Shown piece after piece: positions 29,961 to 33,429 of a stretch of DNA of 64,000 bases (the first letter of the stretch is position 1; each line of letters opens with the position of its first letter). The stretch is from the NCBI RefSeq assembly GCF_036226765.1, contig NZ_CP109017.1, forward strand, positions 5,829,001-5,893,000, read 5' to 3'. This stretch comes from Streptomyces sp. NBC_00670. Lineage in GTDB: Bacteria; Actinomycetota; Actinomycetes; Streptomycetales; Streptomycetaceae. The position numbers and the translations under genes were made by a program. Under the pieces are notes generated by a model. It searched no databases. It was not told where the DNA came from and saw nothing but the letters and a program-made list of their open reading frames with translations.

Positions 29961-30755
29961 CTACCGGTGGGTGAACGCCGCCCTCAGTTCCGGTTCGCCG
30001 AGCGCCCGGGTGCCGCGGACGGCGACCAGTGCCAGTTCCTGGTCCGTCCCCTCGGCGGCGACGGCCGCGGCGAGCAGCTGCTGACCGGCCGGTGAGGCCC
30101 ACCGGGCGTACGGATGGGCCTCCACCCGGGCGATCGCCAGACAGCTGACGCTCAGCAGCAGCGGCAGCGCGAACCAGAGCGCGACCAGCCAGTCGGCCGC
30201 GCCGCCGTCCTCCGGCATCAGCAGCGCGACGACGCCCAGCGCCACCACGGCCGCGGCGGCGGCCCGCACCTGGCGCACCGCACCCGCCACCGTCGTCCGC
30301 GCCCCGCCCCCGTCCGGCACCGCGAGCCCCGCGGCGGTCAGCCGGGCGGCGAGTCCGCGCACGGCCTCCGTGGCGGCCGCCGCCCTGCGCACCGGCGTGA
30401 TCCTGGACTGGCCCTGTGGCCCTATGGCCGCCAGCACCGACCGCTCCAGCTCGTTCTCGGGCTCCGGGTCCACGACCGTGACCCAGCCGGTGTGCGCCAG
30501 CAGCAGCCGGCGCCCACGCGCCATGGAGACCAGCGTCAGATCGACGACCCTCGTGGGGCCGCCGGACAGGAACGCGGCCTCGTAGAGGGTGAGTTGCCGC
30601 GTCTCGTCCCCTTCCCGGCCGGCGGTGCCGGTGCTCCCGGCGGTCTCGGCAGAGGTGACGACGGCGGTGGCCGCGCGGACCGCGGCGAGGCAGAGCCGTG
30701 CGCAGGCCGTGCCGGCGGCGCACCAGGCCAGAAGCAGCAGGAGGACCGAGACCAT
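29961..30755 (-). CDS. TIGR04222-type membrane protein
   Basis: 264 residues. An N-terminal membrane segment (MVSVLLLLLAWCAAGTACA) precedes a soluble domain containing LTLYEAAFLSGGPTRVVDLTLVSM, the recognisable signature of the TIGR04222 domain, and GWVTVVDPE. Two further hydrophobic segments lie at ~165-215 (VVALGVVALLM, LVALWFALPLLLSVSCLAI). Some members of the family end in a low-complexity tail; this one ends plainly in ELRAAFTHR. It is 128 bp downstream of a DUF692 gene on the same strand, a recurring pairing in actinobacteria as I recall it. Function unknown. Confidence 0.72.
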   Translation of the reverse strand: MVSVLLLLLAWCAAGTACARLCLAAVRAATAVVTSAETAGSTGTAGREGDETRQLTLYEAAFLSGGPTRVVDLTLVSMARGRRLLLAHTGWVTVVDPEPENELERSVLAAIGPQGQSRITPVRRAAAATEAVRGLAARLTAAGLAVPDGGGARTTVAGAVRQVRAAAAAVVALGVVALLMPEDGGAADWLVALWFALPLLLSVSCLAIARVEAHPYARWASPAGQQLLAAAVAAEGTDQELALVAVRGTRALGEPELRAAFTHR

Positions 30756-30883
30756 GGCGTTGATCCAAGACCAACCGGCCGGTCACCGCCATGGGGTTCT
30801 CACGATGCGGACGACATGGGTGGTGCGGGTGTGCGGGATGGGGCGTTCTTGTGCGGGGGGCCTCGGGCGGAGGCGAAGGAACG

Positions 30884-32209
30884 TCAGTGGGGGAGGAGGA
30901 GGCGGGTCGCGCGGGTGAGGCGGGTCGGTGGGGTGGGGCCCGCGCGCTCCAGCCACCAGCGACGCAACCGGCGGCGCGCCCGCGCGCTCACCACTGCGCC
31001 CCCGTCCAGCACGTGCCCCGCGAAGTCCAGCGCGTCCCGCCGGTATCCCCCGCCCATCGGCCGCACCTGCGCATACGCCAGGAATGCCGCCCGATAGCCC
31101 TCCCCCAGGATCTCCGGCAGCTCCGGTGCCACCTTGGCCACCACCCCCGCCCGCTTCGCCGCCAACGCCCGCGCCTGTACCCCGACCCGCACCGCGTCGA
31201 ACCCCTCCGGCACCACCGCCCCCGCGACGAGCGCGGCCAGCAGCGCGGTCTCCGCATGCCCGACCCGCTCCCGGGCGGCGTCGGACGCGGCATCGGACGC
31301 GGCGTCGGACGCGGGGGCGGACACGGCGACGGGACCGGTGACGGTACCGGCGGCCTTGGTCTTCGCAGCTGCCGTCCCCGCTGCCGCGCCCCTCTCCACC
31401 GCCTCCCCGATCGCCCGCAGTTCCCCCTCCAGCTCCGCCCCCGACGGAAAGTCCTCGTCCCGCTCCAGCAACACCCCCGGCGGCCGCACCCGCCCCGCGA
31501 GGTCGGCTAGGATGTCGAGGACCCGCGCGGGCACCGGGTGCGCATGGCTGTCGTGCCAGACACCGTCCCGCTCGTAGCCGCCCGCCACATGCACGTACGC
31601 GATCGCCTCGACCGGCAGCTCGTCGAGCGCCCGTGCCGGATCCTCGCCCCGGTTGACGTGATTGGTGTGCAGATTGGCCACGTCGATCAGCAGCCGCACC
31701 CCCGTGCGGTCGACGAGGTCGTACAGGAACTGGCCCTCCGTCATCTCCTCGCCGGGCCAGGCGAGCAGCGCGGCGATGTTCTCCACCGCGAGCGGCACCG
31801 GCAGCGCGGCCTGCGCGATGCGTACGTTCGCGCACAGCACGTCCAGCGCGTCCCGGGTACGCGGCACCGGCAGCAGATGGCCCGCCTCCAGCAGCGGGGA
31901 ACCGGTGCCGGGGCCGCCCGCGCGGACGAACGCGATGTGCTCGGTGACCAGCGGCGAGCCCAGCGCCTCGGCGCGCTCGGCGAGGGCGGTCAGCCGGGCC
32001 TCGTCGGGGCGGTCGGCGCCGCCGAGGCCGAGGGAGACGCCGTGCGGTACGACGGTCACCCCGCGCTCGCGCAGCCGCAGCAGCGAGTCGGGCAGATGGC
32101 CGGGGCAGAGGTTCTCCGCCACGGCCTCGACCCAGTCGATGCCCGGCATCCGCTCCACGGCCTCCGCGATCTCCGGCCGCCAGCCGATCCCCGTCCCCAG
32201 CCGCTCCAT
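30884..32209 (-). CDS. DUF692 multinuclear-iron-type enzyme with extra C-terminal domain
   Basis: 441 residues. Residues 1-~275 are a DUF692 TIM barrel, the family of the iron oxygenases MbnB and TglH that modify Cys in peptide precursors. Expected metal ligands appear in order: [58 protein letters not shown] and LLERDEDFP. After an Ala/Ser/Asp-repeat linker (~295-325) comes a ~110-residue helical domain ([38 protein letters not shown]) resembling DUF2063, the usual separate partner of DUF692 enzymes. The ATG at 32209 follows GGAGGAGG. The TIGR04222 gene is downstream. Substrate unknown. Confidence 0.78.
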
Positions 32210-33177: not shown

Positions 33178-33429
33178 TCAGCCCGAGCAGGCGGTCCGCT
33201 GGGCCTCCTGCCACTCGCAGACGGGGCACAGGGTTGTCCCCTTCCGCGACTCCGGGTACTCCGTCGGCTCCCGGCACAGCACGCACTCGGCGTACGGCGG
33301 CCGGTCGGCCTTCGGCACCGACCCCGCCGTGGCCCCGGCGGGCGCGCAGTAGCCGTCCGTGTCCGCCGCGGACTCCACCGGCTGCCGCGGCTCCCGTGTC
33401 TGCCGCGCTTCCCCTGTCTTCTCCACCAT
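33178..33429 (-). CDS. Small protein with paired CxxC motifs
   Basis: 83 residues. The C-terminal half holds CVLCREPTEYPESRKGTTLCPVCEWQEA, i.e. C-x2-C-x15-C-x2-C, a probable zinc ribbon; the N-terminal half is polar and probably disordered. It ends 39 bp upstream of the Pth2-like start. No family is recognised. Small zinc-ribbon proteins often bind nucleic acid or act as adaptors; this is inference only. Confidence 0.6.
   Translation of the reverse strand: MVEKTGEARQTREPRQPVESAADTDGYCAPAGATAGSVPKADRPPYAECVLCREPTEYPESRKGTTLCPVCEWQEAQRTACSG

Follow-up and report, generated by a model that had tools for sequence, protein, structure and literature searches.

A Streptomyces MNIO fused to a partner-like domain, and a candidate membrane-anchored client encoded in trans

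The window analyzed here, a 64,000-nucleotide stretch of the Streptomyces sp. NBC_00670 chromosome, encodes a 441-residue protein in which a DUF692 catalytic domain (MNIO) is followed by a helical C-terminal domain, next to a membrane protein of the TIGR04222 family. The locus raises two questions: whether the C-terminal domain is an MNIO partner joined to its enzyme, and which protein the enzyme would modify, given a neighbor that has no C-proximal Cys-rich Gly/Ser tail. Drawing on sequence comparison, we consider it somewhat probable that an MNIO–partner fusion oxidizes Cys residues in membrane-anchored tails marked by a W motif, with a client encoded in trans in the window’s clade.

A fused MNIO and its locus

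The sequence-only reading of this DNA had placed an MNIO beside a TIGR04222 gene, and both ORF ends proved exact (Table 1). On the minus strand, the 83-aa Cys ORF, the PTH2-like gene, the MNIO fusion and the TIGR04222 gene follow one another, after which come convergent genes for HemQ and protoporphyrinogen oxidase. The host chromosome is a single 7.58-Mb, Streptomyces-like contig with one PF05114 and one TIGR04222 match in the whole genome; judged by the MNIO fusion protein, the closest named relatives are Streptomyces sp. NRRL F-6676 and S. griseoaurantiacus. The earlier account omitted the PTH2-like gene directly upstream of the MNIO, and its statement that no short Cys-rich precursor lies nearby was slightly off: the six-Cys ORF is two genes upstream, yet it occurs in 41 of 62 genomes and thus does not track the MNIO, so that it is probably not a client. 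Neither gene is tied to the MNIO, and both were dropped as obligate members of the locus. In many congeners, proteins of the DUF4142 cluster stand to one or both sides of the MNIO (L031, L033, L034, L037, L040, L042, L043, L064 and others); these paralogues are absent at the window locus. A PHROGs search gave no match.

Table 1 Features of the MNIO locus, its split relatives and the candidate client gene
Feature	Location	Strand	Basis
MNIO fusion ORF, 441 aa	32209->30884	-	ATG start
MNIO (DUF692, PF05114) TIM-barrel catalytic domain, residues 1-270	31400..32209	-	Pfam, Foldseek, invariant candidate ligands
Linker, variable, low-complexity, residues 271-311	31277..31399	-	Alignment; block pLDDT 46-64 at residues 281-310
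C-terminal helical domain, most likely a partner (PME-type 2-like), residues 312-441	30884..31276	-	Separate frame in relatives; model; MbnC match
TIGR04222 membrane protein, tail-less paralogue (T42b), 264 aa	30755->29961	-	ATG start; TIGR04222 E 2.4e-38
PTH2-fold hydrolase-like protein (‘adjamnio-II’-like), 269 aa	32329..33138	-	PF01981 E 8e-9
83-aa ORF, six Cys (CxxC...CxxC)	33178..33429	-	Weak Cys_rich_CPCC resemblance, PF14206 E 0.14, below cut-off
Split MNIO/partner pairs	L073, L079, L080, L083, L085-L087, L135-L138, L377, L378, L380-L384		
Unannotated one-TM protein, ~106 aa (~100)	C1:3946531-3946848 = L248:5032-5349	+	WWAG + Cys/His/Gly/Ser tail

The catalytic domain matches PF05114 over residues 6–270 (E 6.7e-75; 252 bits against a gathering score of 25), and AP_endonuc_2 is the only other Pfam match of the protein. 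In line with the full set of DUF692 metal-ligand motifs noted earlier, H56, H91, E143, N144, D176, H207, D220, H222 and E249 are invariant in an alignment of 69 homologues, and H181 is kept in at least 90%; as in MbnB and TglH, these conserved residues are the candidate metal ligands. The top Foldseek matches in the PDB were TglH (8hci/8hi7, E 4e-16), the DUF692 protein 3bww and MbnB. An AlphaFold model built with 69 sequences showed a TIM barrel followed by helices at a mean pLDDT of 78, with values below 50 at residues 91–93 and 95–111, among others, in parts of the barrel near H91. The best NCBIfam score was that for the bufferin maturase BufB (NF050167; 171.5 bits, below the curated cut-off of 310). 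All NCBIfam MNIO equivalogs fell under their cut-offs for this enzyme, and because it lies below that of BufB, other MNIO chemistries are possible. In seven pairs from the window’s clade, which share members, dN/dS of the MNIO part was 0.07–0.12, indicating purifying selection, and pN/pS of the partner part was 0.20–0.39. The family is widespread, with a PF05114 match in 376 of 393 Streptomyces genomes.

The C-terminal domain had been read as an MbnC/DUF2063-like partner, and gene order in relatives upholds this in its PME-type 2-like form. Among 74 MNIO loci, the domain is in frame with the MNIO in 57, forms a separate frame directly after it in 11 and has no match in six. Eleven further loci, nine of them chosen for short MNIO frames, added seven split, two fused and two without a partner match, and all 80 nearest named Streptomyces loci, a sample picked for nearness, are fused. 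Among the split pairs of near relatives, seven in all, the two genes overlap by 8–14 bases in six and lie 19 bases apart in one. The C-terminal domain is thus most likely an MNIO partner, a status argued mainly from this gene order. The split partners of L380–L384 score like the fused type and possibly reflect later fission.

Structural comparison points the same way with less force. Residues 311–420 of the full-length model are helical (block pLDDT 78–96), and the domain modeled alone forms five helices (mean pLDDT 86) with no strands and hence no RRE-like part. Its best VIA match was MbnC (7dz9_C; Z 5.4, rmsd 3.8, 82 residues aligned; next Z 3.4, 72 chains), a modest match that, for a helical bundle, is no more than suggestive; the Foldseek E of MbnC was 3.7, no Foldseek match fell under 0.001, TglI and NGO1945 were absent from the fold-comparison matches, and a sequence search of the domain against the PDB returned nothing relevant. 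A partner directly after the MNIO in relatives and bearing no DUF2063 Pfam signature, here fused, fits PME-type 2; a PME-type 1 (DUF2063-RRE) assignment does not fit a domain that has no DUF2063 Pfam match and no strands in its model. Among loci lacking a partner match, two divergent MNIOs (L089:8000-10900 and L139:7133-10120) each have downstream ORFs that appear to resemble ferritin-like iminophenyl-pyruvate dimer synthases, and the second MNIO of G060 (L090) is followed by a Cys-tailed TIGR04222 gene.

TIGR04222 neighbors with and without a Cys tail

The window’s TIGR04222 protein is a clear family member, scoring 132 bits where the cut-off is 43. A Cys-tailed sister, with a tail such as SCGGGSSCGSSS, adjoins the MNIO in 26 of the 57 fused loci and is accompanied by the tail-less form in 15 of these, and the outgroup loci L088 and L135–L138 have a TIGR04222-like frame with a Cys/Gly tail ahead of the MNIO. 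In the window’s clade (SH-aLRT 93 on an MNIO tree of 69 sequences made by a quick method with no bootstrap), all 29 rows are untailed within the stretch read. The tailed and untailed states require two changes on this tree, where some loci stop at contig ends (L032, L035, L039) and the tail state of five outgroup rows was set by hand. Moreover, S. himalayensis (L210, one of the 80 nearest named loci and not on the tree) has an MNIO most like those of the window’s clade beside a Cys-tailed TIGR04222 that carries the W motif as WCGG. These points speak against a simple, single loss of the tailed protein in the window’s clade. Isolated Cys-tailed TIGR04222 genes also lie far from the MNIO locus in the clade member G009 (L124) and in G006 (L132).

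The base of these tails carries a short motif, W[WC][AVTSG][GADSN], that was defined after inspection of the data. Of the 26 tailed TIGR04222 proteins next to a fused MNIO, 24 have it and two read WCAM and WCGT; among eight next to split MNIOs of the first sample, none has it and one reads WCDS. Three of four further tailed proteins from the added split/short-frame sample have it, the exception being that of G618, a genome without the trans gene described below. The motif is missing from the last 130 residues of all 42 untailed TIGR04222 proteins. Its background is low, with two occurrences in 270,346 residues of other called proteins, none in 17,975 residues of aminotransferase fragments and one in 2,446 residues of eight window proteins.

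A WWAG-tail protein in trans and its co-variation with the MNIO

A codon-repeat pattern for Cys-Gly, applied to ten genomes, gave counts that were chance-like overall (13 in G000 against 10 in a reversed control). One of the matches is found again in seven other genomes, where it marks the end of a short gene that mostly has a clear ribosome-binding site. In the encoded protein, a single hydrophobic helix is followed by a basic stretch, then WWAG and a tail such as HSCGGGHSCGGGSSCGSSCGGGCGGG; the protein has no Pfam or NCBIfam family above cut-off, and the basic residues after the helix suggest, by the positive-inside rule, that the tail is cytoplasmic. The gene is 1.9 Mb from the MNIO, beside DUF2617 and a spermidine-synthase-like gene. 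In the eight loci first read, its neighbors are a divergent aminotransferase gene on one side and genes for DUF2617, a spermidine-synthase-like and a CoxG-like protein on the other; three of these loci have small or inserted ORFs in between. DUF2617 is accompanied by a DUF4247 protein in a related variant of the operon (PMC11237479). A profile of the protein found members in 34 of 76 genomes among the best 66 candidates each; many that it missed were later found by synteny, probably because the tail is of low complexity and scoring was confined to those candidates, and the gene was accordingly located by synteny with DUF2617. Two small TM/tail ORFs, one of them Cys-poor, stand in tandem upstream of DUF2617 in G002 (L336), G021 (L334) and G043 (L338).

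In 88 genomes, we examined the region that precedes DUF2617. All 53 fused-MNIO genomes with a full region contain the trans gene, with at least three tail Cys, a threshold picked after inspection of the data, in 52 (median 5; G053 has only 2) and WW in 48. The region is also full in 15 MNIO-less genomes, four of which (G050, G426, G635, G715) are fragmented and reported apart. None of the other 11 has at least three tail Cys: eight of them, with at most 110 contigs (G047, G504, G429, G414, G266, G458, G465, G521), have 0–2 and no WW, and in three with at most 90 contigs (G588, G644, G658) the gene was not found in the regional scan. As for the fragmented genomes, G050 has 2 tail Cys, and G426, G635 and G715 have 6, 4 and 6 with WW intact; in these three assemblies of about 750–1500 contigs, the MNIO was possibly missed. 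The motif itself is present in 54 of 60 trans proteins from genomes with an MNIO and in three of 12 from genomes without, all three fragmented. The tail counts exclude genomes whose region is cut by contig ends (G008, G014, G017, G028, G709), those with no DUF2617 match (G001, G488) and those whose DUF2617 region was not included (G062, G067, G299); for G002, G021, G043, G003 and G010, Cys were counted by direct reading of the locus, the automatic pick having taken a second small ORF or none.

Split-MNIO genomes are more varied. The gene was present in one of seven in the first sample (G043). Among eight further genomes with short MNIO frames (seven split, and G476 with no partner match), six have it with 3–6 Cys and two, G476 and G618, do not. 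Seven split genomes (G018, G035, G037, G051, G060, G061, G618) thus keep the MNIO without the trans gene, and six of the further genomes have both (G514, G511, G495, G626, G679, G613), so that a tie of the trans gene to the fusion as such was rejected. In five of these six, all except G613, the partner scores 206–215 bits, like the fused type; that of G613 scores 150, like the older split type.

On a co-variation tree with 61 of the 88 rows (for the others, the aminotransferase fragment was too short or missing, or the tail state unknown), at least three tail Cys were found in 44 of 45 genomes with an MNIO versus none of eight without, counting unfragmented genomes that have the gene (Fisher 1e-8). 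With fragmented genomes included, the figures are 44 of 45 versus three of 12 (2e-7), and scoring absences as low gives 44 of 49 versus three of 12 (2e-5); these tests ignore phylogeny. Among gene-bearing, unfragmented genomes there are four independent contrasts on the best tree and one on starred branches; here a pair can miss the expected way only through G053, because all eight MNIO-less genomes are low and G053 alone is low among the 45 others. With all genomes, starred branches give three contrasts; averaged, 0.8 of them run as expected, 2.2 show no difference and none is reversed. The pairs are too few for significance in a sign test. The cleanest sister contrast sets G613 (MNIO, 4 Cys, WWAG) against G266 and G458 (no MNIO, 0 Cys, Asp-rich). 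The co-variation is thus correlational, with few independent contrasts. The two kinds of tail also resemble each other in Ser/Gly make-up across 27 genomes, with a rho of 0.56 for the whole tail (p 0.0025) and of 0.49 after Cys (p 0.009), phylogeny not being taken into account. In sum, as a putative RiPP-like precursor the trans protein shows a conserved Cys tail, the motif and co-variation with the MNIO, from an unlinked gene and with few contrasts.

The earlier reading had named the adjacent TIGR04222 protein as the only obvious candidate client. On this view the tail-less protein would be modified at its membrane Cys C18, C22 and C205. Its gene adjoins the MNIO, and these Cys are kept in 33, 33 and 35 of 36 aligned untailed proteins; however, enzyme and neighbor each occur without the other. 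Four fused-MNIO genomes (G013, G023, G032, G045) yielded no TIGR04222 match at E 0.001 among the best 25 candidates per genome, the MNIO-less G047 has an untailed TIGR04222 that retains two of the three Cys, eight of the 80 named loci, each complete on both flanks, show no TIGR04222 gene within 8 kb, and in G051 the untailed protein is at the HemQ locus, far from an MNIO that stands beside a tailed one. With the W motif also missing from untailed proteins, the neighbor was rejected as an obligate client and is unlikely to be the dedicated one, and we regard this explanation as quite improbable. The MNIO of the window’s clade might instead act on a third substrate, on the PTH2-like protein or on the 83-aa Cys ORF, which seems to us rather unlikely. 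The PTH2-like gene is directly upstream, and the order adjamnio-II (peptidyl-tRNA hydrolase), MNIO, TIGR04222 has been published (PMC12452194). Against this, the window’s PTH2-like protein has no Cys at all, its gene is found in 57 of 62 genomes, MNIO-less G047 included, but not in MNIO-bearing G022 and G037, and the 83-aa ORF is as patchy as noted above.

A more serious competitor, though one we still doubt, holds that the WWAG/Cys-tail protein has nothing to do with the MNIO and that the co-variation reflects shared ancestry; its tail would, for instance, serve the DUF2617/spermidine-synthase block unmodified, in metal binding or redox. The gene for this protein is unlinked to the MNIO and conserved beside DUF2617 and Spermine_synth genes, a block that may have its own role; independent losses are few, and the protein is intact in three fragmented MNIO-less genomes. 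Set against these points, low Cys and missing WW coincide in MNIO-less lineages while the TM helix and the Gly-rich tail persist, and TIGR04222 proteins next to fused MNIOs have a similar motif where their tails begin. On these sequence grounds, the distant Cys-tailed small membrane protein appears to be a better client candidate than the adjacent TIGR04222 protein.

Proposed mechanism and comparison with known systems

We propose a plausible mechanism for MNIO action on membrane-anchored tails. Related loci carry three genes, one each for a Gly/Ser/Cys-tailed TIGR04222 protein, the enzyme and a stand-alone partner; most Streptomyces loci examined have the partner joined to the enzyme through the variable linker. 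The partner domain may read the W-[W/C]-[small]-[G/A/S/D/N] motif at the tail base and present the tail Cys, most of which precede Gly or Ser, to the iron site, where they would be oxidized. By analogy with bufferins and captophorins, the products could be 5-thiooxazoles able to bind Cu(I). This is our leading guess for the product because FonBC acts preferentially on Cys with a small residue after it, with a loss of 8 Da from a two-repeat peptide and a product that binds copper (PMC13097082). In the window’s clade, where the MNIO has no Cys-tailed TIGR04222 next to it, the enzyme would most likely serve the trans-encoded WWAG/Cys-tail protein. A broader version, which we hold to be evenly balanced, is that in most Streptomyces the fusion or split pair recognizes W-[W/C] and converts the Cys of Gly/Ser/Cys tails both in cis (TIGR04222) and in trans (the WWAG-tail protein), yielding membrane-bound thiooxazole metal sites, and that loss of the enzyme leads the tail to lose its Cys and motif.

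If true, this would help to explain why many TIGR04222–MNIO clusters seem to have no partner gene, the partner often being fused in Streptomyces, and would provide a single-chain MNIO holoenzyme that is handy for structural and chemical work. It would also mean that MNIOs can have unlinked clients invisible to neighborhood mining, supply a concrete candidate client sequence for a widely conserved Streptomyces enzyme, and widen MNIO chemistry beyond peptides to include membrane-anchored proteins.

Several elements have precedents. The association of MNIOs with TIGR04222 and separate PME-type 2 partners, the latter in at least 10% of TIGR04222 clusters, is published, as is mention of an MNIO|nitroreductase, and modification of bufferin precursors by MNIOs from a different locus has been raised (PMC12452194). 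The portions of that paper covered here do not describe an MNIO–partner fusion, a clade that has lost the tailed protein or an unlinked TIGR04222-type client, and searches of openly accessible literature found no account of the fusion or the WWAG-tail protein.

The arrangement is reminiscent of TglHI and MbnBC (8hci, 8hi7, 7dz9), which have in common a TIM-barrel MNIO and a helical partner that recruits the substrate (PMC10880893). In those systems the partner is separate, whereas the window’s enzyme is a single chain with no RRE-like part in its C-terminal domain model and with candidate substrates that appear membrane-anchored. Bufferin and captophorin systems (BufBC, FonBC; PMC13097082) share Cys-Gly sites with the candidates described here, and BufB gives the window’s enzyme its best, sub-threshold NCBIfam score; however, bufferin systems use PME-type 1 partners and Sec signal peptides (PMC12452194), while the window’s protein has no DUF2063 match and its candidate clients are TM-anchored. 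A third comparison is with the TIGR04222–MNIO clusters with PME-type 2 partners described by Antoine et al. in 2025 (PMC12452194), with the same enzyme and client families and the same type of neighborhood, including a peptidyl-tRNA-hydrolase-like gene. That survey treats partners as separate genes and considers neighbors of the MNIO; in the window, the partner is most likely fused and the proposed client is unlinked.
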